Shown: positions 8,944-25,049, counted from the stretch's first letter. The stretch is 64,000 nt of DNA from Methanothrix harundinacea 6Ac (GCF_000235565.1 NC_017527.1:1364001-1428000); one strand, 5' to 3'. Numbers and translations are program-made. Notes: generated from the sequence alone by a model not told the origin.

Positions 8944-9841
8944 CTTCCCTCACCGCCTCTTCTGCCAGATCCCGGCCGCCCATCGCCACCAGCCTTCGGG
9001 AGAGCTCCCTCGCCCCTTCCAGGTGGTCGGCGGCGGAGATCCGTCCCTCCGCCCTCACCGACCTCGCCCCATCCAGGGACAAGACCTCCGCCAGGACCGA
9101 GATCTCGTCCCCGGAGAGCCGGGCGAAGGCGGCCATGGGGACGACACAGGAGCCGCCTATCTCCTCCAGGAATACCCGCTCGCACTCCGCCTCCCTCCTC
9201 GTCGGGAGGTGGTCGATCCCACCGACGAGCTCCTCCGCCCACCCTTCCGTCGCCACCACGGCGATCGCCCCCTGGTTTGCGGAAGGTACGAACCTCTCGG
9301 GGTCCAGGACGGCGTAGTTGGGACTGTACCCCATCCTCTCGATCCCCGCCAGGGCGAGGACGATCGCCCGGTACCTCCCCTCCTCCAGCTTCCGGAGCCT
9401 CGTCTCCAGGTTTCCCCGGAGGGACTCGATGACGAGGTCGGGCCTCGCCCGCCGCAGCTGCGCCGCCCTCCTCATGCTGCAGGTCCCGACGACCGCCCCC
9501 TCCTCCAGCCCGTCGATGGAGACGCCGTCGTCGCTCACCAGGACGTCCAGGGGCGAGTCCCGGGGGAGGACGGCTCCGATGACGAGCCCCTCGGGCCTCT
9601 TGGAGGGGAGGTCCTTCATGCTGTGGACGGCGACGTCGATCTCCCCCGCCAGCATCAGGTCGTCGATCTCCTTGACGAAGAGCCCCCTCCCCGAGACCCG
9701 GTGGAGGGGGAGGTCCAGGACGTGGTCTCCCTTCGTCTTGACGACCTTCATCTCCGCCTCGATCCCCCTCGCCTCCAGGAGGGAGATGGCGGTCCTCGTC
9801 TGCCGCAGAGCGAGAGGGCTTCCGCGGCTTCCTACGATCAG
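8930..9841 (-). CDS. hemC: Hydroxymethylbilane synthase (porphobilinogen deaminase)
   Basis: Joins four porphobilinogens into hydroxymethylbilane. The conserved N-terminal segment [15 protein letters not shown] lies upstream of the first ATG (9751), so an ATG start would lose essential residues. The only in-frame candidate start is CTG at 9839-9841, which overlaps the hemL stop as CTGA, giving 303 residues, the normal length. The dipyrromethane cofactor cysteine is in [13 protein letters not shown]. Other motifs are HSMKDLPS and the hinge region [11 protein letters not shown]. Coupling to hemL and the downstream SUMT/HemD gene places it in a tetrapyrrole operon. The product is certain; the CTG start is inferred. 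Confidence 0.93.
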
Positions 9842-11106
9842 CCTAGCAGGTTTGACTTGTAAGCCTCCAGAGTCTCGTTTATGACGTCGTCGGTGTGGGC
9901 GGCGGATATGAAGTTCGTCTCATACTGGCTCGGCGGCAGAAATACCCCGGCCTTCAGCATCCTCCGGAAGAAGGCGAGGTATCCCGCCTTGTCGCACCTC
10001 AGCGCCTCAGCGTAGTTCTTTGGAGCGGCGCCGAAGAAGATCTTGAAGATGGAGGCCGTCCCCACCACCGAGTAGCTGAGGCCGAGGTCCTCAACGATCT
10101 GGGCGAGGGCCTTCCGGAGATCCTCCCCCACGGAGTCCAGCCTCTCCAGGGTCCTCTCCCCCTCCAGGACGTCGAGGGTCGCCATCCCGGCGGCTAGAGA
10201 GACGGGGCTGCCGTTGAAGGTCCCCGCCTGGTAGATCCCGCCGCTGGGGGCGACCATCTCCATCAGCTCACGCCTCCCGCCCACCACCCCGATGGGGAAG
10301 CCTCCGCCGATGATCTTCCCCAGGGTGGTCATGTCCGGGACGACGCCGTACCGGGCCTGGGCGCCTCCGAGGCTGAGCCGGAAACCGGTTATCACCTCGT
10401 CGAAGATGAGAAGTACGCCGTGCTCCTCTGTGAGCCTTCTCGCCCCCTCCAGGTACCCCGGCTCGGGGAGGACGGGGCCGATGTTTCCCAGGACCGGCTC
10501 CATGATCACCGCCGCCACCTCGCCGTCGAAGCCCGTCAGGGCCGCCTCCATCGCCCCAAGGTCGTTGTAGGGGACCTGGATGGTGTTCTTGGCCGTATCC
10601 TTCGGCACCCCCAGGGAGTCGGGAACCCCCAGGGTCGTCGCCCCGGACCCCGCCTTCACCAGGACGGCGTCGTGGGCGCCGTGGAACCCCCCCTCCACCT
10701 TGACGATCCTATCTCTGCCGGTGTAGCCCCGGGCGATCCTGAGGGCGGCCATCGTCGCCTCCGTCCCGGTGCTGACGAACCTGAGCATATCGATGCTGGG
10801 GTAGTGGCCGACGATCCTTTTTGCGAGGGAGACCTCCAGCTCCGAGGGGGTGCCGTAGAGCCAGCCTTGCTCCAGCTGTTTCACGACTCGCTCCATCACC
10901 AGGGGGTGCCTGTGGCCGAGGATCATGGGTCCGTAGGCGAGGCAGTAGTCGATGAGCCTTTGGCCTTCCTTCGTCCAGAGGTGAGGGCCCTCGGCCCTGG
11001 AGACGTAGAAGGGGTAGGGGGATATAGCCCGGACGGGGCTGCTGACGCCCCCCGGCATCAGCCGCTTGGCGACCTCGAAGAGCTGGCTAGAGGCATCAGA
11101 AGTCAT
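9838..11106 (-). CDS. hemL: Glutamate-1-semialdehyde 2,1-aminomutase
   Basis: 422 residues, standard for this PLP enzyme, which makes 5-aminolevulinate from glutamate-1-semialdehyde in the C5 pathway. The N-terminal [11 protein letters not shown], the central [11 protein letters not shown] and the PLP-lysine motif [13 protein letters not shown] are all present. It is the first gene of the hemL-hemC-cobA/hemD-radical SAM run. hemA and hemB are not in the window. Minus-strand TTCTATCTATAGCGG about 27 bp before the ATG could be a TATA box for a nearly leaderless mRNA. Confidence 0.95.
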
Positions 11107-11224
11107 GAACCATCCACCGGATTGATGGACCCGCTATAGATAGAAGAACCTTGCGATTAGATCGGATCCTCGTAATAAGATCTGATTATCCCTTATGGGA
11201 AAGAGTATAACAATCCGGGATATG

Positions 11225-12466
11225 TCAGGGCCTCGACGGATGGGCCGGGGCCGGGGGCCGGCCGAGCTCTTCCCAGGCCGCCTCCTCCGCCCTCCTCGCC
11301 ACCTCCCTCAGGGGAAGGCCGCTCTCTCGCGCGATCCGCCGGCAGTCGTCGTGCTCAGCCTTGATCCGGAGGATCTCCCCATCGATGAGGCTCACCTTCA
11401 ATCTCACCCTGAAAGGCCGGCCTTCTATCTCGAAGCCGACCTCCCTCTCTTCCCTCTCGGCGACGAACCGGTGGAGGGACGGAAAGACCCTGACCCCGAG
11501 GCTTCCCGTCTCCTTCATCACGATCCGGGCGAGCCGCTCTGCCTCCTCCTTCTTCGCCAGGACCTGGATGAGGCTTGCGGGCCTTCCCTTCTTCATCAGA
11601 GCCGGGACGATGGTGACGTCCAGGGCCCCCGCCTCCATCAGGATCTCTAAAAGGCCGCCCAGGACCTCCCCGGTGACGTCGTCGACGTTCGTCTCCAGCT
11701 GGACGACCCGGTCGTGGTGAGGATGGGGATGGCTTTCGCCAGGGCCCTTCGGTGCCGCCGGCTCACCGATGACGGTCCGCAGGAGGTTTGGGACCGCCAA
11801 ATCCTTCGATCCGGCTCCGTAGCCCGAGGCCCCGGCCCGGATCAGAGGATATTCGGCGGCGGCCTCGTCCGCGAACGCCGCCAGGATCGCCGCCCCCGTG
11901 GGGGTCAAGAGCTCCCCTTCGACGGGCCCGCCCCTCCAGAGGAGGGCCGACCCCTTCAGGATCTCCAGGGTCGCCGGCGCTGGGACCGGGAGGCGGCCGT
12001 GGGCGGCGACGACGGTTCCCGAGCCGACGGATATCGGGAGGACGACGACCCGATCGGCCCCCAGGCTCTCCCAGGCAGCGGCGCTTCCGGCGATGTCCGC
12101 GAGGGCGTCCAGGGCCCCGATCTCGTGGAACCGCACCTCCTCTCCGGAGACGCCGTGGACCCTCCCCTCCGCCTCGGCCAGGATCTCCATGATCTTCATC
12201 GAACGGTCGCGGGCCTGGGGGGCGAGGGCTGCCGCCGCCAGGACCGATCTCGCCTCCGCGAGGGTCCTGTACCTCTTCCCGCCGGCATGGATCCTCACCC
12301 TCGCGGCGGAGATGTGGTGCTTCTCCGCCCTGGAGATCTCAAGGGTGCAGCCGACCGACTCGACGGCTTTTCTTACCGCATCCGGGTCGGCCCCCAGGTC
12401 CAGGAGGGAGGCCATGATCATGTCGCCGGAGGCGCCCGAAGATGGGTCGAAGAGGAGGAGTCTCAT
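11225..12466 (-). CDS. larC: LarC-family nickel-insertion protein (pincer-nucleotide cofactor maturation)
   Basis: 413 residues. The start MRLLLFDPSSGASGDM and the block EVRFHEIGALDALADIAG are hallmarks of LarC (DUF111), the CTP-dependent nickel insertase of the lactate racemase cofactor. A His-rich stretch SHPHPHHDR near residue 245 suits metal handling. In some bacteria larC is read through a programmed frameshift; here one continuous frame covers both halves. No larA, larB or larE is nearby, so the client enzyme is unknown. A TATA box about 27 bp before the ATG suggests a leaderless transcript separate from the upstream formate-dehydrogenase-like genes. Confidence 0.88.
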   Translation of the reverse strand: MRLLLFDPSSGASGDMIMASLLDLGADPDAVRKAVESVGCTLEISRAEKHHISAARVRIHAGGKRYRTLAEARSVLAAAALAPQARDRSMKIMEILAEAEGRVHGVSGEEVRFHEIGALDALADIAGSAAAWESLGADRVVVLPISVGSGTVVAAHGRLPVPAPATLEILKGSALLWRGGPVEGELLTPTGAAILAAFADEAAAEYPLIRAGASGYGAGSKDLAVPNLLRTVIGEPAAPKGPGESHPHPHHDRVVQLETNVDDVTGEVLGGLLEILMEAGALDVTIVPALMKKGRPASLIQVLAKKEEAERLARIVMKETGSLGVRVFPSLHRFVAEREEREVGFEIEGRPFRVRLKVSLIDGEILRIKAEHDDCRRIARESGLPLREVARRAEEAAWEELGRPPAPAHPSRP

Positions 12467-12500: not shown

Positions 12501-12502
12501 TT

Positions 12503-12520
12503 GGTCCCCTGACGGGGACC
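12503..12520 (-). terminator. Hairpin between the NuoG/FdhA gene and larC
   Basis: GGTCCCC (12503-12509) and GGGGACC (12514-12520) form a perfect 7-bp stem with a 4-nt loop. It lies after the stop of the long fmd/fdh transcript and before the larC TATA box, a natural place for termination or mRNA end protection. Confidence 0.4.
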
Positions 12521-12530
12521 ATGGCAGAAG

Positions 12531-12558
12531 GGTCCCTTCCTCGTTTCACGAAGGGACC
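12531..12558 (-). terminator. Second hairpin spanning the NuoG/FdhA stop codon
   Basis: GGTCCCTTC (12531-12539) pairs perfectly with GAAGGGACC (12550-12558) around a 10-nt loop that contains the stop codon. It shares the GGTCCC...GGGACC core with the hairpin 11 bp away. Confidence 0.35.
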
Positions 12559-15302
12559 TTCTCTACGCGGATGGCGCAGGCCTTGTACTCCGGCGTCTTC
12601 GCTACAGGGTCCAGGGCGGCGTTGGTGAGGAGGTTCGTAAGAACGTTGGCGTAGTGGAAGGACAAGAAGGCGACGCCGCGGGACGACTTCTCGGTGACCC
12701 TCGCCTTCACCCTCACCTCGCCCCGCCTGGACCTGACGAGGACCGTCTCGCCGTCCTCGATTCCCAGATCCTCGGCGTCGGCGGGGCTGATCTCGATCGT
12801 CTCCTCCGGCCAGACCCACATTATCCCTTTTGAGCGGCGGGTCATGGAGCCGCAGTTGTAGTGCTCCCTTCTTCGGCCGGTGGTGAGGATCAACGGGTAG
12901 TCGGGATCGGTCTCCTCGGCGGGGGGCCTGTGCTCGACGGGGTTGAACTTTCCGAGCCCCCGGCTGAAGCAGCCGAGGTGCATCGTCTCCGTCCCCGGGT
13001 GGTCTATCGATGGGCAGGGCCACTGGAGGCCGAGGCCACCCAGCCGCGAGAAGCTCACTCCGGCGAAGATCGGCGCCAGAGACGATATCTCATCCATGAT
13101 CTCGGAGGGGTCGGCATAGCTCATGGGATAGCCCATCTTCTGGGCGATGAGGCAGATCGTCTCCCAGTTAGCAAGGCCACCGAGAGGGGGGATCGCCCGG
13201 TTCACCCGCTGGATCCTCCGCTCCCCATTGGTGAAGGTACCGTCGCACTCGGCGAAGCTTGCGGCCGGAAGGATGACGTCAGCGTACTTGGTCGTCTCGG
13301 TGGGAAATATCTCCTGGACGACGAGGAACTCCAGGGCCTCCAGGGAGGAGCGGACGCGGTTGGTATCGGGGTCGGTCTGGGCGGGGTCCTCCCCCAGGAT
13401 GTAGAGCCCCCGGATTCCCCTCCCCTCCGCCAGCCGCTCCAGCATCTCTGTAGAGGTGAGGCCGGGATCTGCCGGGAGCCGGACCCCCCAGGCCTCCTCG
13501 AACTTGGACCGAACCCTCGCGTCCGTCACCGGCTGATAGCCGACGTGGTTGTTGGGGAGGGCGCCCATGTCGCAGGCCCCCTGGACGTTGTTCTGACCCC
13601 GCAGCGGCATCACCCCCGTCGACCTGCGGCCGACGTTCCCCGTCAGCATGGCGAGGTTTCCCAGGGAGATGACGTTGGCGGTTCCAGTGACGTGCTCTGT
13701 CATCCCCAGGCTGTAGATGATCATCGCCTTCTCGGCGCTGGCGTAGAGGCGGGCGGCCTCGACGATATCGGCTGCTGGAACCCCGGTTATCTCGGCGGCC
13801 CTCTCGGGGGTATATCCATCGACCACCTTCCGGAACTCCTCGAACCCCTCGGTCCGGCTGGCGATGAACTCCCCATCCTCCAGCCCCTCCCGGAGGATGA
13901 CGTTCATCATCCCGTTGAGGAGGGCGATGTTGGTTCCAGGCCGCAGGTTGAGCCAGACCTTCGCCCTATCGACGAGCTCGATTTTGCGGGGGTCGGCGAC
14001 GATGATCTTTGTCCCCTTGTTGGCCGCCTTGATAACCTTCAGCCCCACAATGGGATGGGCCTCGGTGGTGTTGGAGCCGATGACGAAGAGGACGTCGGCG
14101 TCTTCGATCTGGTCGAAGGAGTTGGTGGCGGCACCGCTGCCGAAGCAGGCGGCAAGGCCGGTTACTGAAGGGGCGTGGCAGACCCGGGCGCAGTTGTCGA
14201 CGTTGTTGGTGCCGAAGACCGCCCGGGCGAGCTTCTGGACGAGGTAGTTCTCCTCATTGGTGCACCGGGATGAGGAGAGGGCTCCCAGGGAGTCGGGTCC
14301 GTATTCATCTCTGATCTCGGAGAACCTTCTCGCGACGAGGTCGAGGGCCTCCTCGAGGGTCGCCTCCTCGAATCGCCCATTTCGTCTTATCAGGGGGGTG
14401 GTGATGCGGTCGGGATGATGGACGATCTCGTCGAGGCCGAAGCGGCCTTTTACACACAACTGCCCCCGATTCACCGGTCCCTCGCGATCAGGAGCTATGG
14501 AGACTATCCTCTCGTCTTCGACCCCGAGCTTCATCCGGCAGCCGACGCCGCAGTAGGGGCAGACGGTGGAGATCGTTTTCTCCGGCCGCGCCCATTTATC
14601 GGACCGGACGGATAGGGCGCCGGTGGGGCAGACGTCGACACAAGCGCCGCAGAACTTGCAATCGGAGTCCAAAAGAGATGGGGGCCCTATCCAGTGCATG
14701 CGGTGAAAGTCGGGGTTGCTCTTGAGGACCCCCTCCCCCCGGATCTCCGAGCATACTCGGACGCAGCGGCTGCACATGATGCAGAGGTTGTAGTTCCGAT
14801 CGAAGAAGGGCTCTCTCAACACCGGCATATTCCTGAAGTGGAGCTGATATCTGACCTTCTCCAGGCCCACGAACTCCACCGCCTCCTGCAGCTCGCAGGA
14901 GCCATCCTGGGGGCAGAACTTGCAGCCCACAGTCACCGGAAACTTCCTCATGCACTCCCGCAGTTCGGTGCATTCGTTCTTTCGGTCGCAGAAGAGGCAG
15001 GAGGTGGGGTGGTTGGTGAGGGCCAGGAGCATCTCCAGGGTGTGCCTTCTCATCTCCTGCAGCTCCTCTGTCCGGGTCTTTACCACCATCCCCTCTTCGG
15101 CGAGGGTGTTGCAGGATGTGGGGTAGTGATCCAGGCCCTCTACTGCCACGATGCAGAGCTTGCAGGATCCTATGGGCTTCAAGTCGGGATGATGGCACAG
15201 CGCCGGCAGATAAGAGCCGGCTTTCCGGGCCGCATCGAGGATGGTAGCCCCTGAAAGGACCGTCACCTCTCGGCCGTCGATGGTAAGGGTTATCTCAGAC
15301 AT
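12546..15302 (-). CDS. NuoG-like iron-sulfur / FdhA-type molybdopterin oxidoreductase fusion
   Basis: 918 residues from ATG 15302 (MSEITLTIDG; a TTG 33 nt upstream is less likely). Domain order: [2Fe-2S] ferredoxin (CHHPDLKPIGSCKLC), His-Cys cluster motif HPTSCLFCDRKNEC, a second CKFCPQDGSC, two [4Fe-4S] motifs (CIMCSRCVRVC and CKFCGACVDVC), then FdhA with CPYCGVGC and the Mo/W ligand region CARVCHAPSV, where cysteine replaces the selenocysteine of E. coli FdhF. This is the layout of the alpha subunit of NAD(P)- or ferredoxin-linked formate dehydrogenases. No NuoE/NuoF or FdhB partner is encoded nearby. Formate oxidation or CO2 reduction is likely; the electron partner is inferred to be ferredoxin or FmdF. 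Confidence 0.88.
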   Translation of the reverse strand: MSEITLTIDGREVTVLSGATILDAARKAGSYLPALCHHPDLKPIGSCKLCIVAVEGLDHYPTSCNTLAEEGMVVKTRTEELQEMRRHTLEMLLALTNHPTSCLFCDRKNECTELRECMRKFPVTVGCKFCPQDGSCELQEAVEFVGLEKVRYQLHFRNMPVLREPFFDRNYNLCIMCSRCVRVCSEIRGEGVLKSNPDFHRMHWIGPPSLLDSDCKFCGACVDVCPTGALSVRSDKWARPEKTISTVCPYCGVGCRMKLGVEDERIVSIAPDREGPVNRGQLCVKGRFGLDEIVHHPDRITTPLIRRNGRFEEATLEEALDLVARRFSEIRDEYGPDSLGALSSSRCTNEENYLVQKLARAVFGTNNVDNCARVCHAPSVTGLAACFGSGAATNSFDQIEDADVLFVIGSNTTEAHPIVGLKVIKAANKGTKIIVADPRKIELVDRAKVWLNLRPGTNIALLNGMMNVILREGLEDGEFIASRTEGFEEFRKVVDGYTPERAAEITGVPAADIVEAARLYASAEKAMIIYSLGMTEHVTGTANVISLGNLAMLTGNVGRRSTGVMPLRGQNNVQGACDMGALPNNHVGYQPVTDARVRSKFEEAWGVRLPADPGLTSTEMLERLAEGRGIRGLYILGEDPAQTDPDTNRVRSSLEALEFLVVQEIFPTETTKYADVILPAASFAECDGTFTNGERRIQRVNRAIPPLGGLANWETICLIAQKMGYPMSYADPSEIMDEISSLAPIFAGVSFSRLGGLGLQWPCPSIDHPGTETMHLGCFSRGLGKFNPVEHRPPAEETDPDYPLILTTGRRREHYNCGSMTRRSKGIMWVWPEETIEISPADAEDLGIEDGETVLVRSRRGEVRVKARVTEKSSRGVAFLSFHYANVLTNLLTNAALDPVAKTPEYKACAIRVEKVPS

Positions 15303-15365
15303 CTTCTCAACCGCTCCTGAGAGGGGTGGTATCAATTTTAAGAGGAGGTTTCTGGATGAGGAAGG

Positions 15366-16148
15366 TCACTCTGAACAGACGCACCACCTCTCCAGGCCCA
15401 GGAGGCGGGCGGCCCCTGCTACGGTCGTCCCGTAGAAGACGACCCGGTTTTCCAACCGAAAAGCCAGCTCCAGAAGGGCGTCTATGGTGCCGTTTACGAG
15501 GGTGGTGCCTGTGATCAGAACCAGGGGGCACCTCTCAAAGAGGGGCTCAGGCAGGGCTCCGTCCAGGATTTTGACCCCCGAACGGGTCTCACCGGCACTG
15601 GCGAGGTCTGAGACCATCACCCTCTCGGGGCCGAAGACCTCGACGAGAGACGAGAGGATGGCGGGCTGGAGCCCCACCAGCCCCACCCCGCAAGGCCTCT
15701 CTCCCCTCAAGAGCTGGGCCAGGCTTTCGGCACATTCCCGGGGGCCGGCATCCCTGCAGTGGACCGTCCCCTCCACGAGGCCGCAATATCTCATGACGGC
15801 GTTGATCGTCGATACGAGGACCGCCCGCTCGAAGGTGTTATCCAGGGAGAGCTCCAGCACCCCCTCCAGGGTTCCGGCGAAGACGCCCCGGGCGGAGGTG
15901 AAGGCCTGGCCGCAGGATCCCCGATAATTCGCCTGCATCAGAACCTCCTTTCCCCTCAGGAGGGGGAAGTCGTCCATCTCGGGGTTTCCGATCGCTTCAG
16001 CGCTGCTGAGGGGCCGGGTCGCTACCACCTGGTCATCCAGCTCATCTCTCGGAACGTCCCTCTGGTCGCACCAGCGGTCCAGCTCGGAGATGAACCGCAA
16101 TCTTGCGACCTCTAATAGATCCGTCATCCCGGTATTTTCTCCCTTCAT
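15366..16148 (-). CDS. DUF364-like putative Rossmann protein
   Basis: About 260 residues. The C-terminal half has VGLVGLQPAILSSL, the acidic strand ending VMVSDLASAGE and VLITGTTLVNGTIDAL, as in the DUF364 family, whose members often sit with metal-cofactor genes and are suspected of metal chelation. The N-terminal half has YRGSCGQAFTSARG. ATG 16148 is preferred because GGAGTGAGGGCGAG lies at good spacing; GTG 16160 and ATG 16127 are alternatives. It sits between fdhD and the NuoG/FdhA fusion, so help in metal or molybdopterin maturation is plausible but unproven. Confidence 0.65.
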   Translation of the reverse strand: MKGENTGMTDLLEVARLRFISELDRWCDQRDVPRDELDDQVVATRPLSSAEAIGNPEMDDFPLLRGKEVLMQANYRGSCGQAFTSARGVFAGTLEGVLELSLDNTFERAVLVSTINAVMRYCGLVEGTVHCRDAGPRECAESLAQLLRGERPCGVGLVGLQPAILSSLVEVFGPERVMVSDLASAGETRSGVKILDGALPEPLFERCPLVLITGTTLVNGTIDALLELAFRLENRVVFYGTTVAGAARLLGLERWCVCSE

Positions 16149-16191
16149 TCTCGCCCTCACTCCTTAAATTCAAAATAGCTCGATGCCATCG

Positions 16192-16962
16192 TCATAATAT
16201 CCGCTCCTTGCCGGCGTAGACATAGAGATTTGGCCTCCGGGCGAAGGCGGCCAGGGTCATCCCCAACCTCTCGGCAAGCTCAATTCCGGCATTCAAGGGG
16301 CCTGCCCTGCTGACCAGGACGGGGATCCCGGCCATCCCCGCCTTGGAGACGATCGCCGATGAGAGCCTTCCCGTAGTTATAAGAACAGACCTCGACGGAT
16401 CGGCTCCCGCCATGAGGGCAGACCCGACGGCCTTGTCCACCGCCGAGGATCTGCTGACGTCCTCGCAGAATGAGCTTAAGGCGCCCTCCTCTCCGAGGAC
16501 CAGAGCTGAGTGGGTGCCCCCGGTCCTCCTCCAGACGAGAGCGGCGTCGTTGATCATGTCAAGGGCTTTAAAGACCACCTCGGGACGGATCCTCAGGTCT
16601 GAGGCCGTCGGACGAGCCTCCACCTTCATCCCGCCGCCTCTGCCCTCACAGAATATCTCTTTGCCAGCCACCCTCGCCGAGACGAGATCTTCGATCCCAC
16701 GGAGGTGGCCTTCGCAGAGGAGATGGCCGACGGCCAGCTCTTCAAGCTGGGAAGGGAGGCAGAAGAGCTCCGCCACCATCATGCCATCCAGGATCAGGGC
16801 AACCCTCTCCTCGATGGCGACGTCCACCTCCAGGCTCCGCCTCTCGGACCCCGATATCTCAGTGCACCTCACCGTCTGAAAGGCTCCGCCCCGATCGAGC
16901 CGCTCGCCCCTCCAGAACTCTTCCGCCTCCTCAACCCTCTCGACGTGCCAGCTCTCCTTCAT
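16192..16962 (-). CDS. fdhD: FdhD-family protein lacking the CxxC sulfur-transfer loop
   Basis: 256 residues. The FdhD signature blocks are present: RRTGGTHSALV near 155, EDVSRSSAVDKAVG near 180 (canonical EDVGRHNAVDK), ITTGRLSSAIVSKAGMAGIP near 208 and a late LAAFARRPNLYVYAG. In classical FdhD a CGxCG loop near residue 120 carries sulfur from IscS to the molybdopterin ligand; here that region reads GRGGGMKVEARPTASDL with no cysteine. It lies 10 bp after fdhA and ahead of another FdhA-like gene, so it should mature these enzymes, either by another chemistry or only as a cofactor carrier. Confidence 0.85.
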   Translation of the reverse strand: MKESWHVERVEEAEEFWRGERLDRGGAFQTVRCTEISGSERRSLEVDVAIEERVALILDGMMVAELFCLPSQLEELAVGHLLCEGHLRGIEDLVSARVAGKEIFCEGRGGGMKVEARPTASDLRIRPEVVFKALDMINDAALVWRRTGGTHSALVLGEEGALSSFCEDVSRSSAVDKAVGSALMAGADPSRSVLITTGRLSSAIVSKAGMAGIPVLVSRAGPLNAGIELAERLGMTLAAFARRPNLYVYAGKERIL

Positions 16963-16972
16963 CCCTCGGGCC

Positions 16973-19012
16973 TCAAGGCTTCACCGATATTCTGCAGGCG
17001 GCCATCTTATACTCCGGAATCTTGGCTATGGGGTCGAGGGCGTCGGAGGTGATGATGTTGGTCGCCTGCCAGTGGAAGGGCATGAAGACCATCCCCGGCT
17101 TCACTCTTTTCGTCACCCGGGCCCGGGCCTCGGCCTCACCCCGGACCGTCTCCACCTTGACCATATCACCTTCGCAGATCAAGAGCCTCGCTGCATCCTC
17201 TGGATTGATCTCGACGTAGAGCTCAGGGTCTCTATCCAGGAGGGAGGGGCTCCGCCTCGTCATGGAGCCGCTGTTGTAGTGGACCACGATCCTTCCAGTG
17301 GAGAGGAGGATCGGATACTCAGGGCTCGTCTCCTCGGCGGGGGGCCTGTTATCCGCGGAGGCGATATTCGCCCTGCTGCTGGGGGTGGAGAACCTCTCCT
17401 GATGGAGGATCTCAGTCCCGGGATGGCCCTCGTCGGGGCAGGGCCAGAGGAGGCCACCCACCTTCGAGATCCGCTCCCGGGTCATCCCCCCGTATTGTGG
17501 GACGTTCCTGTTGATCTCTTTGAGGACCTGATCGGCGCTCTCCCCCTTCAGGTCCAGACCCATCCTCTTCCCGATCTCATTTATGACCCAGAGCCCCTCC
17601 TTCGCCTCGCCGACGGGGGGGACGGCCTGGTCGATCCACTGGACCCGCCGCTCCATGGAGGTATAGCTTCCGTCCTTCTCCGCCCAGGCGGCCGCCGGCA
17701 GGACGAGATCGGCCATCCTGGCGGTGGCGGTCATGAAGATCTCCTGGACGACGAGAAAGTCGAGGTTATCGAGGGCGGCCTTCGTCTTGTTGATGTTGGC
17801 ATCGCAGGTGACGGGATCTTCTCCTATGATGTACATCGCCTTAATCTTCCCCTCCAGCGCCGCCTCCGTCATCTCTGTAGCTGTAAGCCCCGGCCCCAGG
17901 GGCAGGTCCTCTGCCTCCCAGGCAGCCTTGAAAAAGTCGATCGATTTGGGGTCTGATGCTCTCCTGTAGCCTGGATAAAACTCGGCCATGCCGCCCATAT
18001 CGCAATTTCCCTGGACGTTGTTCTGTCCGCGCATCGGCCAGACGCCAGCCCCCGGCCTTCCCATCTGGCCGGCGACCAGGGCGAGGGTGGCGCAGGTCTT
18101 CACGTTGTCGGTGCCACAGATGTGCTGGGTTATGCCCATGGAGTAGAGGAGAGAGGAAGCGGGGGACCGGGCATAGATCCGGGCGGCCTGGGCGATCTCT
18201 TCAGCGGGAACCCCCGTCATCTCGGAGGCCTTCGCCAGGGAATAGCCTCTGAGGCTGGCAGCGAGGATCTCAAAGCCCTCAGTCCTCTCTTCGATGAACC
18301 TCTCATCGGCGAGCTCCTCATCCACGATCACCTTCATCATCCCCCTCAAGAGGTCGATGTCGCTTCCAGGGTTGATCCGCAGGTGGAGGTCCGCCATCCA
18401 GGAGGTGGAGGTGATCCGAGGATCGGCGACGATAACCTTAGCTCCGCTCTCCTTCGCCTTCTCTACCCAGCGCGAGACGACGGGATGAGCCTCGGCGAAG
18501 TTTGTGCCTATGGCAAAGATGCAGCTTGAGTTTTTGAGGTCTCCGAGGTTGTTGGTCATGGCTCCCGTCCCCAGAACCGCGCCGAGGCCGACGACGGTAG
18601 GCGAATGGCAGAGGCGGGCGCAGTTGTCTACGTTGGGCGAGCCGAGGAGGCGGGCTAGTTTCTGCATCAGGTAGTTCTCTTCGTTGTTGCAGCGGGATGA
18701 GGCCAAAAAGCCCAGGGATTCCGGGCCGTGGTCCTGTGCGCTGCCGGCCAGGCCCCTTGCTGCCAGATCCAGGGCCTCCTCCCAGGAGATCCTCACAAAT
18801 TCGTCGCCATCCCTCTTCAGGGGATATTCGAGCCTGTCCCCGTTATTCAAGATCTCCAGGACGGCGTTGCCTTTGGGGCAGAGGGCTCCCTCACAGGCGG
18901 GGTGGCCTTTCATATACTCAACGCCCATGGCCTTGCCCCTCTCTACAACGAGGTAATAGCCGCAACCTACTGCACAGTAAGGGCAAAGAGATGGCACCAG
19001 TTTTGTAGACAA
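16973..19012 (-). CDS. fdhA: Formate dehydrogenase catalytic (alpha) subunit
   Basis: 679 residues, the size of archaeal F420-linked FdhA. One N-terminal [4Fe-4S] cluster (Cys 10, 13, 17 and 45 in CPYCAVGC...CPKG) is followed by the molybdopterin domains. Cys135 in CARLCHSPTV is the expected Mo/W ligand, with the adjacent catalytic His. The C-terminal dinucleotide-binding domain has STGRIVVHYNSGSMTRRS. The start is TTG behind GGAGGATAGG. There is no fdhB (F420-reducing subunit) or fdhC (formate carrier) beside it; instead it follows fmdB by 30 bp in the same direction, so it probably passes electrons to or from the Fmd complex. Confidence 0.92.
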   Translation of the reverse strand: MSTKLVPSLCPYCAVGCGYYLVVERGKAMGVEYMKGHPACEGALCPKGNAVLEILNNGDRLEYPLKRDGDEFVRISWEEALDLAARGLAGSAQDHGPESLGFLASSRCNNEENYLMQKLARLLGSPNVDNCARLCHSPTVVGLGAVLGTGAMTNNLGDLKNSSCIFAIGTNFAEAHPVVSRWVEKAKESGAKVIVADPRITSTSWMADLHLRINPGSDIDLLRGMMKVIVDEELADERFIEERTEGFEILAASLRGYSLAKASEMTGVPAEEIAQAARIYARSPASSLLYSMGITQHICGTDNVKTCATLALVAGQMGRPGAGVWPMRGQNNVQGNCDMGGMAEFYPGYRRASDPKSIDFFKAAWEAEDLPLGPGLTATEMTEAALEGKIKAMYIIGEDPVTCDANINKTKAALDNLDFLVVQEIFMTATARMADLVLPAAAWAEKDGSYTSMERRVQWIDQAVPPVGEAKEGLWVINEIGKRMGLDLKGESADQVLKEINRNVPQYGGMTRERISKVGGLLWPCPDEGHPGTEILHQERFSTPSSRANIASADNRPPAEETSPEYPILLSTGRIVVHYNSGSMTRRSPSLLDRDPELYVEINPEDAARLLICEGDMVKVETVRGEAEARARVTKRVKPGMVFMPFHWQATNIITSDALDPIAKIPEYKMAACRISVKP

Positions 19013-19042
19013 TTCCTATCCTCCTGAAGTGAGCGATTAGTC

Positions 19043-20368
19043 TTAGGGCAGGGATGAAGGCCTTCTGCCCTCTTTTACACGATCGAATATCTGCCTCAGG
19101 GTGTCTTCGTTGCTCCCGGTGAAGGAGAAGGGGGAGGTGGTGAAGGGGGTGAAGTACACCGGGACGTCGTCGAGGCGGTAGAAGGTCCCGTCGCACTCCA
19201 TGGCGTCGATCACTCCAGGCAGAACGACCTCGGAGATCATGGTGGTGGGACAGGGAGCGATATCGATACAGGCCACCGGGATCTCGGCTAGACGCTCCGC
19301 GCAAACCGCCGGAAAGTGGGAGACGAGGTCAGCGCAGACGACGAGGGCCGCATCTGCGTCCTTTTCTCTCAAAAGGTCCACGGCGGAGTACTCGCCAGGG
19401 TTGTATCGAGGGTAGCCCCGGGCGAAGTCCAGGGCGAAGGGGTAGCCGTAGAGGTAAGATGCCATCTGATTGAACCCGGCGACGTTGCAGTGGCCCCTCA
19501 GGGCACCGATGACGAACTTGGTGTGCCCGTTCAGCTCCTTGACCAGGTTGAAGGCGAGCTCGGCGTTCCGGTGCTTTCCGTAGGATGAGGCGATTCCCAG
19601 GCCGACGTAGATCGTGCCGAAGTTGCACCCCTTCATCATGTCCACCATCTCCTCCATTAAGGATATGGGAACGCCGGTCGTCTCCTCGACGGTTGGGTGA
19701 GGCCTTTTGCCGTGGAGAAGGGTGAGGAGGGCCGAGAGGAGCTCGTAATCGGAGTTGGGCTTCAGCTGGACGTGAAGGTCGGAGTTCTCGGCCGTAGGCG
19801 ACCTCCGGGGGTCGACGGTGATCACCGTCCGATCAAACCTCCCCCGGCGGGTCCAGTGCCCCCTCGGGTATATCGCATACCTGGACATGTGCCGGGGCAT
19901 CGACTCCAGGGGGTTGGAACCCCAGTATACGGCGAGGTCGCCTCTGATCTTGCTGTTTCCCGCCGTCGCCCCGACCCTTCCCGCTTCCTGGATCCCCATG
20001 GCCGTCGGGCCGTGGCATACTGTGGAGTTGGAGTCGACGGCGGCGCCGAGAAATTCGCCCAGGTGGAGGCCGACCTCCATCGCCTCGCAGCTGGTCTCGC
20101 TCCCCATGAAGATTAGGGGTCGTTTCGATTCGATCAGGATCTCGGCCGCCCTCTCGATCGCCTCAGCCCAGGGGACGGCCCTCTGCTCGCCGTCCACGGT
20201 CATCATAGGCTCTCGAATCCTGTGGGCGCTCACCAGCTCCTGGAACTTGGCGTTTCCCATCTTGCAGGCGTTCTTGACCGTCAGGCGATCCCCATCCAGC
20301 TCCACCTGGATGTCGTCGCAGGAGGCGCCGCAGACCGGACATATAACGTTCTTATAGACCACGTTCAC
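19043..20368 (-). CDS. fmdB: Formylmethanofuran dehydrogenase subunit B
   Basis: 441 residues. This is the Mo- or W-bis-pterin subunit that reduces CO2 to formate inside the Fmd/Fwd complex. An N-terminal [4Fe-4S] motif is CPVCGASCDD plus CKMG; the metal-ligand cysteine is in STVCHGPTAMG near residue 120 (selenocysteine in some methanogens). It starts with GTG overlapping the fmdD stop as GTGA, behind GAGGAGGGG. The gene order E-F-A-C-D-B matches the molybdenum-type fmd operon of Methanosarcina rather than fwdDBAC, but the metal cannot be read from sequence. Confidence 0.96.
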   Translation of the reverse strand: MNVVYKNVICPVCGASCDDIQVELDGDRLTVKNACKMGNAKFQELVSAHRIREPMMTVDGEQRAVPWAEAIERAAEILIESKRPLIFMGSETSCEAMEVGLHLGEFLGAAVDSNSTVCHGPTAMGIQEAGRVGATAGNSKIRGDLAVYWGSNPLESMPRHMSRYAIYPRGHWTRRGRFDRTVITVDPRRSPTAENSDLHVQLKPNSDYELLSALLTLLHGKRPHPTVEETTGVPISLMEEMVDMMKGCNFGTIYVGLGIASSYGKHRNAELAFNLVKELNGHTKFVIGALRGHCNVAGFNQMASYLYGYPFALDFARGYPRYNPGEYSAVDLLREKDADAALVVCADLVSHFPAVCAERLAEIPVACIDIAPCPTTMISEVVLPGVIDAMECDGTFYRLDDVPVYFTPFTTSPFSFTGSNEDTLRQIFDRVKEGRRPSSLP

Positions 20369-20757
20369 CCCCTCCTCATAATCATCTTTGTGATCTCCTT
20401 AGCGCTCAACACCTCATCCTCGGTGGGCTCGATCAACACCTGTGCCCCCTTGTAGAGGGGCGAGCCCGTCGAGAAGGTCTCGGGATCGACTACGACGTTC
20501 GCCCAGATCGCTCGCGGCATGAAGACCTGCCCCGGCGGGATAGACCCGTCCTCTCTGGCATGGACTGCCACGCTCCGGCTTCCATCCACCTCCGCGACCC
20601 TGACCCTATTGGGCCGCCCCAGGACCTCGAAGTCTGCGGGATTAATGGAGCATACGGCGCATTCCATCTTGTAGGCCTCGGTGAACTTGTCTCCGCCCTT
20701 GGCGAGCCTCCCCTCGTTTATGGTGCTCCCGCTGTTCAGCAGGACGACCAGGCTCAT
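20365..20757 (-). CDS. fmdD: Formylmethanofuran dehydrogenase subunit D
   Basis: 130 residues, equivalent to the C-terminal molydopterin-dinucleotide-binding domain of other Mo enzymes, encoded separately as is usual for this complex. The beta-barrel core includes ALWANVVVDPETF-like sequence near residue 95 and CAVCSINPADFEVLG near 38. It overlaps fmdC by ATGA upstream and fmdB by GTGA downstream, so the subunits are translationally coupled. Confidence 0.93.
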   Translation of the reverse strand: MSLVVLLNSGSTINEGRLAKGGDKFTEAYKMECAVCSINPADFEVLGRPNRVRVAEVDGSRSVAVHAREDGSIPPGQVFMPRAIWANVVVDPETFSTGSPLYKGAQVLIEPTEDEVLSAKEITKMIMRRG

Positions 20758-21578
20758 ATCATCGCCTCCCTGGCGTAGAGGACCCCCTTCGGGCTCTTGC
20801 TTATGGCGTAATCTCCGGTGAACTTTGCGAAAATCCCCTCGACCCTCCGGCCTCCGATCGTCGGGTCGACCTCGGAGCCCGCGGCAACAAAGCCGGGGGT
20901 GAACTGTTGGATCCTGCCTAGGACGACGATCGATCCCCCGACCATCTCGGCCCCGACTCCCCTGACAGCGTCTTTTCCCACCACGATCAGGCCGCCATTC
21001 TGCCGGATGCCGCAGAAGTTCTCAACGCTGCCTCCGACGACGATCTCGCCTCCGGCCATCCCCCCACCGAGCTGGCTTCTCGCATTCCCGCAGATGAGGA
21101 TCTTCCCGCCGGTCATGCCGCGCCAGCTGCCCCGGTAGGCAGAGCCCGCGTGATCTCCGACGTCTCCTCCGACCTCCAGGAGGCCTCCGGTCATGTTCAT
21201 CCCCGCCCAGGGGCCGGCGTTCCCCCTCACTCGGATCTCGCCTCCGGCCATCTCAGACCCGAGGTGCATCCCAGCCGAGCCGCGGATCTCGATCCTGCCG
21301 GAGGTCATCCTCTGGCCGATCCTCTTGACCCGTGACGCGTCGCCGTCGATCAGGATATCGACCGCCGATACCCCATCTACCGTCTTCTCATCCGTCACAT
21401 CAATATCAAAGAATTCCGAAATATGTGCCCCTCTCGGCCCCTGCCAGACCGCAAGTCTGCCGATCTCTCTCTCAGACCTTCCGGCGAAGATGTCCGGTGA
21501 GATCGACTCCGCCTCGATCATTATCTCGATCTCGCCCTTTGGGGAGAGCCTCACTTTCCTGGTCAGAACCATCACCAT
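20754..21578 (-). CDS. fmdC: Formylmethanofuran dehydrogenase subunit C
   Basis: 274 residues. Structural subunit with a right-handed beta-helix built from GxxGxxxG-like turns, seen here as MHLGSEMAGGEIRVRGNAG, WAGMNMTGGLLEVGGDVGDH, MTGGKILICGNARSQLGGG and MAGGEIVVGGSVENFCG. It resembles the C-terminal domain of glutamate synthase and holds the FmdA/FmdB pair in place. Its start overlaps the fmdA stop by a few bases. Confidence 0.95.
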   Translation of the reverse strand: MVMVLTRKVRLSPKGEIEIMIEAESISPDIFAGRSEREIGRLAVWQGPRGAHISEFFDIDVTDEKTVDGVSAVDILIDGDASRVKRIGQRMTSGRIEIRGSAGMHLGSEMAGGEIRVRGNAGPWAGMNMTGGLLEVGGDVGDHAGSAYRGSWRGMTGGKILICGNARSQLGGGMAGGEIVVGGSVENFCGIRQNGGLIVVGKDAVRGVGAEMVGGSIVVLGRIQQFTPGFVAAGSEVDPTIGGRRVEGIFAKFTGDYAISKSPKGVLYAREAMI

Positions 21579-23341
21579 CCCCCCTCAGCGCCGTTGACGA
21601 CGATCGCCTCCGGGTTCCTCAGATACTTGTCCGGCACCGGGTAGTTCGCAAAGCCGATGGTGTAGTACTTGAACCACTCACGAACGTCAGCCATCATATC
21701 TTTCGTAAGACTCTCGTCGACCTCGGGCTTGCAGTAGAACCTCCTCCCGTCGGGGATGTTGACGATCTCCCCGTCCCTGACGACGACCTTTCCGTCCTTT
21801 ATGGTTAGATCGGCCCGGCTGAAGGCCCTTATCACTTCATCGGAGTCGGCGGGGTTGAAATTCTCGGGGTCGATGTCGTAGACGGCGACGTCCCCGTCAG
21901 CCCCCGCCCCCAGGTGGCCCTTCCGATACGCCATGCCGATGGTCCTGGCAGCGTTGGCCCTGGTTAAGATGGCGATCTCAAAGAGGGTCATCTCCCTCTC
22001 GACCCCGCCGAGGCTGGACCGATCGTACCCCCACTTATGGCACTCGGCGGCGGTCGCATCCCTCGCCCGCCTCGACATCAGCCAGGCTATCACCTGGGGG
22101 TACTTGGTGAATACCCCGCCGTTGGGGTGGTCTGTCGTCATGATCGTCTTCCAGGGGTCGTCCACCATGAGGAGCATCTCCAGGCCTATCGCCCACTGGA
22201 TGGCGCTGATGGGGTTACCCTTCAGGTAGGTGAAGGGTAGTACCCCCGAGCCACACTCCAGCTCCACGTCGGTGTTCGACCACTTCTGCCCCCCGATCCC
22301 GGCGAGGACGTAGAGGTCGTGGATCGAGGGGCCGTCGCCGGTCATGCAGGTGGCTGGCCCAAAGGGGACTGCCCCGTTGTCGATCACCACGTGGTCGGCC
22401 TTGTTGACGTACCTGGCGAGACCTTCGGCCCCGGACTCGAAGTCCCTCCAGCTCGTGCCGCCGAAGGCGTTGAACTGGGCGTGGGCGAGGTAGACGCTCT
22501 GGGCTCGATGGGGGTCCATTTTCGTCTCGGCCCACTCTACCCCCATCTTCTGAACGGGGGCGAAGTCCGAGGGGATGGCGAGGGAGTCTTTTGTGATCTC
22601 GGCGTTTCCGGGGTGGCCGAGGTTGTTTGCGTGCAGGTGGAGCGAGATCGGCATCCCCAGCCTCTCGTTCACCTCGGCGAGGCCGTGGATCACCTCTCTT
22701 GCCGTCACCTCGAAGTGGATGTTCGGCTCGTCGAGGGAGTGGACATTTTTGCCCCAGCCCCAGTTCTCGACCCCAGCGGGGTTGACGCACTTGATCCCGT
22801 AGGCCTTGTGGGTCTTCATCATCCAGGCGACGTAGGCGGCGGCCTTTTCGATCTCTCCCTGGTGGAGGTAGCGCATCAAAAACCAGTTGTTTCCAAGGAC
22901 GAGGTAGGCTCCCATGTCGAGCATGGGGGTTGACCTCATCTCCTCGTGGGTGTGCCGGGCCTCCAGGGGAGGCATCGCCGCCTCAAAGACGGTGGTGTAG
23001 CCCATCGCCGAGTATTCGTACCCCTGCTTGTAGACGCTGGGAACGGTGTAGCCGGAGCCCGAGTGGGCGATCTCGGTCCTATGCCTCACGGAGCCGATGT
23101 GGTCTTCGGGGCGCATCAGCCTTCCGGCGTTCACCTTCGCTCCGGCGACGTGGGCGTGGGAGTCGACGCCCCCCGGCATCACCGTCTTTCCCCTGGCGTC
23201 GATAGTCTCCGCCCACGCGAGATCGGCTCCGGATAGGTCATTTACTACTTTTCCGTCCTTTATGAAGACGTCCATCACCTCGCCGTCGATCCCGTTGAGG
23301 GGGTCGAAGACGTGACCGTTCTTGATAAACATCGTCGGCAT
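21572..23341 (-). CDS. fmdA: Formylmethanofuran dehydrogenase subunit A
   Basis: 589 residues. Amidohydrolase-fold subunit that condenses formate made by FmdB with methanofuran to formylmethanofuran. Metal-site motifs are DSHAHVAG near residue 61, the probable carboxylated lysine in AYGIKCVNPAG near 182, and the late TTDHPNGG near 390. The N-terminal GHVFDPLNGIDGEVMDVFIK is typical of the family. The start overlaps the fmdF stop by one base (TGATG). Confidence 0.97.
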   Translation of the reverse strand: MPTMFIKNGHVFDPLNGIDGEVMDVFIKDGKVVNDLSGADLAWAETIDARGKTVMPGGVDSHAHVAGAKVNAGRLMRPEDHIGSVRHRTEIAHSGSGYTVPSVYKQGYEYSAMGYTTVFEAAMPPLEARHTHEEMRSTPMLDMGAYLVLGNNWFLMRYLHQGEIEKAAAYVAWMMKTHKAYGIKCVNPAGVENWGWGKNVHSLDEPNIHFEVTAREVIHGLAEVNERLGMPISLHLHANNLGHPGNAEITKDSLAIPSDFAPVQKMGVEWAETKMDPHRAQSVYLAHAQFNAFGGTSWRDFESGAEGLARYVNKADHVVIDNGAVPFGPATCMTGDGPSIHDLYVLAGIGGQKWSNTDVELECGSGVLPFTYLKGNPISAIQWAIGLEMLLMVDDPWKTIMTTDHPNGGVFTKYPQVIAWLMSRRARDATAAECHKWGYDRSSLGGVEREMTLFEIAILTRANAARTIGMAYRKGHLGAGADGDVAVYDIDPENFNPADSDEVIRAFSRADLTIKDGKVVVRDGEIVNIPDGRRFYCKPEVDESLTKDMMADVREWFKYYTIGFANYPVPDKYLRNPEAIVVNGAEGGW

Positions 23342-24369
23342 CAGACCACCTCCCTCTTCTCAAGCCATATCGCCTCCGTCGGGCAGATCAGGCTGCAGGT
23401 GGCGCAGGAGCCGCAGACATCCTGGTCGACCACCACGATCGCCCCGTTCTCCACCTCCAGGAGGGGCTTCTTCTCCAGCTCGTTGAGGTGGCCCGCTGCA
23501 AGATACGGGTCGGAGAGGGCGTTGACGGGACAGACGATGACGCAGTTTCCGCAGCCGAGGCAGGCGTCCCGGTCGGTCTTCAAGATGGAGGTGAGGGTCG
23601 GCCGGGGCGCGGCCTCGGAGAGCTTCTTCTCGAAGGCCTTCTTCCCCTTCATCTCCGGAACGATCGCCGTCTTTCTGACGGAGATCGCGGCCACCGGGCA
23701 GGCCTGGGCGCAGGCTCCACAGTAGATGCAGGCGTCCCTCCGGTGGGTCACCTTCTCCACGATCTCGCCCTGCCGCCAGGAGCGGTTGAAGAGGGCGTTG
23801 GCGGGACAGGTGTCGACGCAGGTTCTGCAGGCCTGGCAGATCTGATCGTCCCGGAAGAATTCTCCGGCGAAGGGCTTCTGAAAAGTGATGGCATCTTTCG
23901 GACAGACGGCGGCACACCAGCCACAGTGGACGCATCGATCGAGGTCTATCTGAATCTTTCCTTCCAGTCTCAAGCTGCCATCTTCGGCGAGCCGTCTATC
24001 CTCGAGCTCGATGCAGCCTTGGGGGCAGACCTCGGCGCAGAGGCCGCAGTGGACGCATCGTTCATTCACCAGGGTGGGACTAAGGGCGAAGTTGAGGTAG
24101 GAATCGTCCTTCTCCGCCTTGCCGGAAACTCTAACCTCCAGAGCCCCGGTAGGGCAGACCCGGGCGCATAAAGCACAGAAGACGCATCCCCCGCTATTTC
24201 GCTTCTCGAGGAACTCCTTATCGATCAGCCCCCGGGCGACGGCCCCCACAGAGCCTATCACCAGCTCTCCTTTGGGACATATCTGGACGCAGGTCCCGCA
24301 ACCTATGCACTTCTCGGGAAGATAGACCTGGGCCTTCTCCCCCCTCTCTTCCAGAAGCACCTCTCTCAT
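23341..24369 (-). CDS. fmdF: Polyferredoxin subunit of formylmethanofuran dehydrogenase
   Basis: 342 residues with eight complete CxxCxxCxxxC motifs (CIGCGTCVQIC, CVFCALCARVC, CVHCGLCAEVC, CVHCGWCAAVC, CQACRTCVDTC, CIYCGACAQAC, CLGCGNCVIVC, CGSCATCSLIC), so up to eight [4Fe-4S] clusters. In the known Fwd/Fmd structures this subunit wires the catalytic subunits to the external electron donor. In this operon it is the natural docking point for the two FdhA-type subunits encoded downstream. It overlaps fmdE by ATGA. Confidence 0.95.
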   Translation of the reverse strand: MREVLLEERGEKAQVYLPEKCIGCGTCVQICPKGELVIGSVGAVARGLIDKEFLEKRNSGGCVFCALCARVCPTGALEVRVSGKAEKDDSYLNFALSPTLVNERCVHCGLCAEVCPQGCIELEDRRLAEDGSLRLEGKIQIDLDRCVHCGWCAAVCPKDAITFQKPFAGEFFRDDQICQACRTCVDTCPANALFNRSWRQGEIVEKVTHRRDACIYCGACAQACPVAAISVRKTAIVPEMKGKKAFEKKLSEAAPRPTLTSILKTDRDACLGCGNCVIVCPVNALSDPYLAAGHLNELEKKPLLEVENGAIVVVDQDVCGSCATCSLICPTEAIWLEKREVV

Positions 24370-24977
24370 CTAATCCCCGCAGAACCGATCTCAATATTGC
24401 TCTTCGATCGTTGAGCGCAGCTTTTGCAGCTCCTCTCATCTCCCTGAAGGACGAAGCTCTCGCCGCAGGAGTTGCAGACGGCGATCCTCTTCTCCGGCTT
24501 TTCTAAAACCTCGAGGTCCACCATCCCCCAGGTGTAAACCGCCTCTTCGGCCCTGATCAGGTCCGAGATCGCCTCCTCATGAGGAACCTTATCGATCTTC
24601 ATCTGCCAGGAGTGAAGCCTCGGATAGGAGGCGGTCTTGGCCGGGTCGAGGACGGTCCTTTTGCCATTGACCCTCTCCGCACCTCGGGGAGCCCGCCTGG
24701 AGATCGTCGCCGCCATCTTCCCCAGGTTCTCGATTCTGAGCCCCTTATTTCCGATGGTGCAACCCCCCAGCACCTGAAAGGCGTCGGGCAGGCAGCTCGA
24801 AGTCTCGCAGGTGACAAAGAGCCTATCTCCTTCCGAAAATCCCAGCGTCCTTCGGGCTATGTCATAGATCTGGATGCCGACGAAGACGCCGGTGCTGAGG
24901 TAGCCGTGAAAGGGGACGACCCTCTCGATCTGCGAAAGGATCTCCGGGTCGGTTATCGATCTTATGACCTCCTCCAA
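24366..24977 (-). CDS. fmdE: FmdE-family protein (formylmethanofuran dehydrogenase subunit E)
   Basis: About 203 residues. The N-terminal FmdE domain has VPFHGYLSTGVFVG near 20, the cysteine-bearing CETSSCLPDAFQ and GGCTIGNKGLRI, and a C-terminal zinc ribbon (CNSCGESFVLQGDERSCKSC). No ATG is available at the 5' end: TTG 24977 follows GGGAGGAGG at 9-nt spacing and is chosen here; a second TTG at 25004 falls inside the promoter-proximal inverted repeat. It is the first gene of the operon. FmdE is not essential for catalysis in known complexes; metal or cofactor binding is suspected. Confidence 0.9.
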   Translation of the reverse strand: MEEVIRSITDPEILSQIERVVPFHGYLSTGVFVGIQIYDIARRTLGFSEGDRLFVTCETSSCLPDAFQVLGGCTIGNKGLRIENLGKMAATISRRAPRGAERVNGKRTVLDPAKTASYPRLHSWQMKIDKVPHEEAISDLIRAEEAVYTWGMVDLEVLEKPEKRIAVCNSCGESFVLQGDERSCKSCAQRSKSNIEIGSAGIR

Positions 24978-24997
24978 GGAAGAAAACCTCCTCCCTC

Positions 24998-25049
24998 CCT
25001 TCAAGTATCAGAAGGTTTAAGAAGGTTTGTATATTCGCTTACTTGAAGG
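24998..25049 (-). promoter_or_regulatory. Promoter and operator-like inverted repeat of the fmd operon
   Basis: A perfect 10-bp inverted repeat, CCTTCAAGTA (24998-25007) and TACTTGAAGG (25040-25049), brackets an AT-rich core with a TATA-like GAATATAC (minus strand, about 25029-25036) roughly 50 bp before the chosen fmdE start. The arm centres are 42 bp apart, four helical turns. Between them, AGAAGGTTTA and AGAAGGTTTG repeat in tandem (25010-25029). The arrangement suggests a dimeric or looping regulator binding over the promoter. Confidence 0.5.

Follow-up and report, generated by a model that had tools for sequence, protein, structure and literature searches.

Methanothrix is a major acetate-using methane producer, and the path by which electrons reach CO2 in this genus during direct electron transfer is an open question (PMC12072023). 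A locus of Methanothrix (Methanosaeta) harundinacea 6Ac raises it in a concrete form: its operon for formylmethanofuran dehydrogenase (fwd, also named fmd) runs on into a gene for a formate dehydrogenase alpha subunit, here called FdhA1, and contains no gene for FdhB. With which protein would this FdhA1 exchange electrons? The locus lies in a window of 64,000 nucleotides (C2:1364001-1428000 of the 2,571,034-bp genome); "the window" denotes this whole stretch, and coordinates without prefix are positions in it. We describe the conservation of the fwd-fdhA1 linkage within the Methanotrichaceae and favour, if only just, a model in which a FwdF-bearing Fwd and a dedicated FdhA1 link CO2/formyl-methanofuran, ferredoxin and formate.

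The fwd-fdhA1 operon and its conservation

As an earlier note on this DNA had described, the fwd genes, fdhA1, fdhD, a DUF364 gene and a NuoG/FdhA fusion form a single run on the minus strand, in the following order:

24366..25004 (-): fwdE/fmdE (PF02663); the alternative ATG start at 24977 is likelier
23341..24369 (-): fwdF, polyferredoxin with eight 4Fe-4S motifs (CxxCxxCxxxC); sole FwdF of the genome
21572..23341 (-): fwdA, TIGR03121 match above cut-off
20754..21578 (-): fwdC, TIGR03122 match above cut-off
20365..20757 (-): fwdD, molybdopterin dinucleotide-binding subunit, matched below its exception-level cut-off
19043..20368 (-): fwdB/fmdB, TIGR03129 above curated cut-off; catalytic Cys kept (TVCHGP)
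16973..19012 (-): fdhA1, 679-aa formate dehydrogenase alpha subunit (TIGR01591) with one 4Fe-4S cluster
16192..16962 (-): fdhD, formate dehydrogenase maturation sulfurtransferase; the genome has a second fdhD
15366..16160 (-): DUF364 gene (PF04016), single copy, recurring beside fdhA1
12546..15302 (-): NuoG-N/FdhA fusion (FdsA-like), 918 aa from ATG (929 aa from an upstream TTG)
12502..12521 (-): terminator-like hairpin between the fusion and larC

Neighbours from fwdE through fwdB are joined by overlaps of a few bp (4-bp), followed by gaps of 30 bp (fwdB-fdhA1), 10 bp (fdhA1-fdhD), 31 bp (fdhD-DUF364) and 63 bp (DUF364-fusion); the overlaps and the 30-bp gap, like the eight clusters of FwdF, bear out the earlier note. 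Translation of fdhA1 starts at a TTG, shortly before which an AGGAGG stands within the 30-bp gap. The whole run is predicted to be one transcript, of which the hairpin is the probable end, although terminator-like sites are no commoner in the window than in shuffled sequence. Beyond it lie larC and hemL (9838-12466, -), as they do in three relatives (L107-L109). The order fwdB-D-C-A-F-E agrees with Mhar_1283-1288 of the published genome paper, where the genes are named fwd (PMC3349665), and we infer that fdhA1 is Mhar_1282 and the fusion Mhar_1279. The strain has another such operon, against whose FwdC (Mhar_0373) an antibody was raised in that study (PMC3349665). The arrangement is also similar to that of the Methanosarcina fmdEFACDB operon (PMC3349665), but the Methanosarcinaceae loci examined have no fdhA1-fdhD-DUF364 extension, their nearest FdhA relatives being located in CooS-HycB clusters. 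The DUF364 protein is presumed to be a metal or cofactor accessory; its predicted structure is poor (mean pLDDT 53), and the top fold hit is itself a DUF364 protein (3l5o, E 0.008), which adds no function.

The proteins themselves are well preserved. FwdA, FwdB and FwdC score above curated cut-offs, and together with the catalytic Cys of FwdB and the eight-cluster FwdF they identify a formylmethanofuran dehydrogenase. The best PDB relative of FwdB is the FmdB-like chain 9sw6_J (635 bits, versus 394 bits for the tungsten FwdB 5t5i), and 'fmd' is therefore a fair name as well. Both FdhA proteins of the operon exceed the TIGR01591 equivalog cut-off of 666 (880 and 813 (812.6) bits) and retain the Cys-His pair, the RGQNNVQG motif and the 4Fe-4S motif. 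The nearest PDB relatives of FdhA1 are F420-dependent FdhA, the FdhF of HDCR and the FdhA of Methanospirillum hungatei.

Orthologues of fdhA1 (66-91% identity) were found in Methanotrichaceae only. In 15 of the 33 family loci the gene is linked to fwdF/A/C/D/B (same strand, within 5 kb), and in three more fwdE alone stands directly upstream; ten of the remaining loci end at a contig edge on at least one side. Over the five genera that show linkage, two gene orders occur: fwdFACDB-fdhA1-fdhD-DUF364 (the window, L107-L110 and L166) and (fwdE)-fdhA1-(fdhD)-fwdFACDB (L112, L114, L115, L120, L123 and L124, with fragments in L129, L134 and L137). Moreover, a split fdhA1 copy in one metagenome-assembled genome (MAG) runs on into fwdF (L032 and L075). 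Linked copies are always co-stranded with fwd and often lie 40-160 bp from fwdB, fwdE or fwdF. Because it is conserved in two gene orders within the family, the linkage is more than chance and not a local accident; the comparison across Methanotrichaceae that the earlier note had proposed thus supports its link between Fdh and Fwd for FdhA1.

The electron partner of FdhA1

In a tree of 93 FdhA domains (quick method, SH-aLRT support), FdhA1 forms a monophyletic clade of Methanotrichaceae only (SH-aLRT 100), the only FdhA clade in that tree to which full fwd operons are attached. Its neighbours are a CooS-linked clade, also present in Methanosarcinaceae, and a glutamate-synthase-linked clade, both of them adjoined by genes for HycB-like proteins and small ferredoxins, while the FdhAB of the family falls in a different clade. 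FdhA1 differs from its sister clades by 12 fixed residues, none of which lies within residues 1-100 (the Fe-S domain). Given the HycB-linked sister clades and this unchanged domain, a ferredoxin-type partner is to be expected. The operon has no HycB gene, and FwdF is the only ferredoxin-type protein encoded there, which makes FwdF, or a HycB borrowed from elsewhere, the likely partner. When FdhA1 was searched for residues that could distinguish a docking face for FwdF, its Fe-S domain proved unchanged, which speaks neither for nor against FwdF.

Electron transfer between formate dehydrogenase and Fwd is itself known. Fdh-Hdr-Fwd supercomplexes have been described in hydrogenotrophic methanogens (PMC12350162, PMC12054007), and in the Fdh-Hdr-Fmd supercomplex of Methanospirillum hungatei (PDB 7bkb; PMC12350162) electrons of formate dehydrogenase reach Fmd via FmdF; the FdhA, FwdB and FwdF of that complex are homologous to those of the window. 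There, however, FdhAB is joined via MvhD and HdrA, the latter contacting FmdF, whereas the operon studied here contains no hdr, mvhD or fdhB gene. FdhF-type enzymes (E. coli FDH-H, 1aa6; HDCR FdhF, 7qv7) resemble FdhA1 as stand-alone FdhA proteins with one 4Fe-4S cluster that match it over nearly the full length, but they have HycB partners where FdhA1 has only FwdF in its operon. What appears new in Methanothrix is therefore the form of the link, without FdhB or Hdr, with docking, direction and formate activity as predictions. An interaction of Fmd and Fdh in M. harundinacea has been proposed from expression data (PMC12072023), and a monomeric FdhA in Methanothrix is mentioned in PMC6687939. 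No description of the conserved fwd-fdhA1 operon was found in the literature searched, which is weak evidence as that literature misses most subscription journals; the word 'formate' does not appear in the main text of the M. harundinacea genome paper (PMC3349665).

The main alternative is that fdhA1, fdhD and DUF364 cluster with fwd through a common need for molybdo- or tungstopterin and through co-regulation, FdhA1 being a separate soluble enzyme that uses ferredoxin or a remote HycB. We regard this as possible, if doubtful. A common demand for Mo/W might by itself account for the gene neighbourhood, as fdhD and DUF364 do accompany fdhA1, and with its Fe-S domain unchanged FdhA1 could borrow HycB-like proteins from the CooS or glutamate-synthase loci. 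Two further kinds of observation also weigh against the favoured model. Firstly, fdhA1 is unlinked in four loci whose flanks each extend for at least 4 kb (L122, L125, L126 and L128), L126 belonging to a complete genome, presumed M. soehngenii GP6, and no fdhA1 was found in the presumed M. thermoacetophila genome (G046), so that FdhA1 is not essential for Fwd. Secondly, several of its fixed substitutions are close to the active-site motif (M327 beside R328 is one), and the substrate is therefore not certain. On the other hand, linkage is confined to the FdhA1 clade though other FdhA genes have the same cofactor needs, and the close, co-stranded arrangement outlasts rearrangement. We retain direct exchange between FdhA1 and FwdF as the preferred reading.

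The fusion and the other formate dehydrogenases

The second FdhA of the operon, the fusion, combines 2Fe-2S and several 4Fe-4S domains with a complete FdhA domain including the active-site motifs. Among solved structures it is closest to the FdsA subunit of the NAD-dependent Rhodobacter capsulatus formate dehydrogenase (6tg9_A), which aligns over residues 13-924 (929-aa numbering; 790 bits), but no FdsB/FdsG diaphorase gene stands beside the fusion in the window operon. In five genomes of the genus, that of the window among them, the fusion comes after DUF364, but it is missing at this position in the sister operon L166. In other genera it occurs with NfnB/NfnA and an FNT carrier (L143, L153), with NfnB (L144) or alone (L142, L151). 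An orthologue (79%) in the presumed M. soehngenii genome (L141) adjoins HdrA-MvhD, a polyferredoxin, HdrC and HdrB, and not Fwd as in the window; the gene content matches that of the fdhA-hdrABC-ferredoxin cluster MCON_3277-83 (PMC7382037), with which L141 is probably identical.

The earlier note had placed both FdhA proteins in one Fwd-centred complex serving different donors, and the intact active-site motifs of both, together with their genes sharing a one-strand run in five genomes of the genus, would fit that idea. That the two forms serve different donors is plausible, but a single complex of both we consider improbable: because the fusion is missing in L166, is related to FdsA over its full length and has Nfn or HdrABC neighbours elsewhere, it probably works as an enzyme apart, with a reductase of its own. 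We see in it an exchangeable module for formate dehydrogenation and not a fixed part of Fwd. The proposed link without FdhB, with FwdF as plausible partner, is thus supported for FdhA1, given its linkage in two orders and its ferredoxin-partnered sister clades, and not for the fusion.

Two FdhA-type subunits and neither FdhB nor a formate carrier is a correct account of the operon but not of the genome, which encodes seven full FdhA proteins, five of them elsewhere. A single FdhAB pair (C2:342154-344947, L014) contains an FdhA 46% identical to FdhA1; FdhB was recognised by its FrhB/FdhB C domain. A second fusion (L015) is accompanied by NfnA, a divergent NfnB and the single FNT formate carrier of the genome (C2:731679-732410). 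Of the remaining three FdhA genes, one accompanies ferredoxin genes and an archaeal glutamate synthase of three genes (L016), one lies between genes for HycB-like proteins and CooS (L017), and one occurs with a sulfhydrogenase-gamma-like flavoprotein (L018). Two further FrhB-domain genes exist, neither near an fdh gene. An FdhB encoded elsewhere as partner of both operon FdhA proteins, which the earlier note had named as fatal to its proposal, was rejected as the simplest reading: the lone fdh-adjacent fdhB is no orphan and pairs with an FdhA of another clade. Likewise rejected was a hydrogenase route; no [NiFe] hydrogenase was found in the genome, the lone match being an Fpo/Nuo CD-like subunit of 571 aa.

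Clusters of the two sister clades recur in other genomes. FdhA with HycB-like ferredoxins and the three-gene archaeal glutamate synthase was observed in five genomes of the genus (L016:6949-13545, L168, L169, L125 and L128), possibly for formate-driven glutamate synthesis. CooS-HycB-FdhA-HycB-ferredoxin clusters are common to Methanotrichaceae and Methanosarcinaceae (L017:6206-11703, L130, L131, L160-L163 and L165) and possibly represent a CO-to-formate module.

Finally, FdhA1 might have drifted from formate to another role, e.g. as a structural or altered-substrate molybdoenzyme, which we hold to be very improbable: other methane-metabolising archaea are described as having non-catalytic homologues of FdhA/FwdB (PMC12054007), within the class FwdB-like genes of this non-catalytic sort are indeed present near fdh genes, and the fixed differences of FdhA1 include some near the active-site motif, but its catalytic Cys-His pair, RGQNNVQG and 4Fe-4S motifs are intact and its score is well over the equivalog cut-off.

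Such FwdB-like genes, stand-alone and lacking the catalytic Cys but keeping the 4Fe-4S motif, are present in Methanothrix and in eight Methanosarcinaceae genomes (L113:7310-8626(-), L144:11663-12976(-), L231:2421-3713(+), L164:11041-12336(-), L173:11110-12399(-) and L225-L230). In L113 one of them is the only fwd-type neighbour of fdhA1. Two of those in Methanothrix adjoin Tfx-family regulators, one also a molybdate-type binding protein; in Methanosarcinaceae a molybdate-type transport operon is close to at least two of them, and two stand immediately before fdhAB. They are possibly molybdenum-related, non-catalytic FwdB proteins. A role together with Fdh as an Fhc-like formyl hydrolase was not retained as the main reading, since most are not beside fdh and several adjoin Tfx-type regulators or molybdate-type transport genes. 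A third FwdB-like gene of M. harundinacea (C2:2474601-2475800, L224:8599-9816), below the family cut-off and without catalytic Cys, adjoins a FwdD-like and a ferredoxin-domain gene and is next to an ornithine carbamoyltransferase-like gene. In one MAG from the family of Methanosarcina, a complete fwdFACDB run encodes a FwdB with Tyr in place of the catalytic Cys (SIYHGP; L232:57-1304(-)), which may be real or a sequencing error.

Formate as a possible internal electron currency

The model draws on observed gene content and order, conserved linkage, intact motifs, the sole FwdF and the absence of hydrogenase. FdhA1 would descend from FdhA proteins that donate electrons to small HycB-type ferredoxins and in Methanotrichaceae would most likely exchange electrons directly with the eight-cluster FwdF. 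The putative Fwd-FdhA1 unit would thereby connect CO2/formyl-methanofuran with ferredoxin and with free formate, three pools in all, and neither F420 nor FdhB nor Hdr would take part. These genes lead us to predict docking on FwdF, formate as substrate and the direction of flow. Since CO2/formyl-methanofuran has a more negative potential than CO2/formate, formate should be readily made from formyl-methanofuran oxidation, while fixing CO2 on methanofuran with formate requires an additional driving force. The former direction fits the methyl-oxidation shunt that has been proposed for cells growing on acetate (PMC3349665), in which the low-potential electrons of formyl-methanofuran would exit as formate; the fwd genes of the window operon are indeed transcribed on acetate (PMC3349665). 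When CO2 is reduced with electrons taken up from a partner, Fwd would be fed by formate or ferredoxin; Fmd and FdhA are reported to be significantly expressed during direct electron transfer (PMC12072023). The other formate dehydrogenases of the genome would pass formate to F420, NAD(P)H or glutamate synthase, formate being an internal electron currency of a cell without hydrogenase.

A wider reading, which we put forward as speculative and rather unlikely in its entirety, is that Methanotrichaceae in general use formate and not H2 as internal currency: an Hdr-free and FdhB-free FdhA1-Fwd complex would interconvert formyl-methanofuran, ferredoxin electrons and formate, and the other Fdhs would share this pool, drawing from it or replenishing it. 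Each of them would be linked by its genes to a redox module of its own: F420 through FdhB, NAD(P)H through Nfn-type reductases, glutamate synthase, CO dehydrogenase or, in M. soehngenii, Hdr.

Some Methanothrix species have been reported to cleave formate yet to form no methane from it (cited in PMC6687939), an activity so far without an assigned enzyme. The FdhA1 of the fwd operon and its putative Fwd partner offer a concrete protein pair for this activity as well as for the question of direct electron transfer. Our analysis suggests that hydrogenase-free members of the family exchange electrons with formylmethanofuran dehydrogenase through formate; if this is true, the Fdh-Fwd link of hydrogenotrophic methanogens would extend to hydrogenase-free acetoclastic ones.

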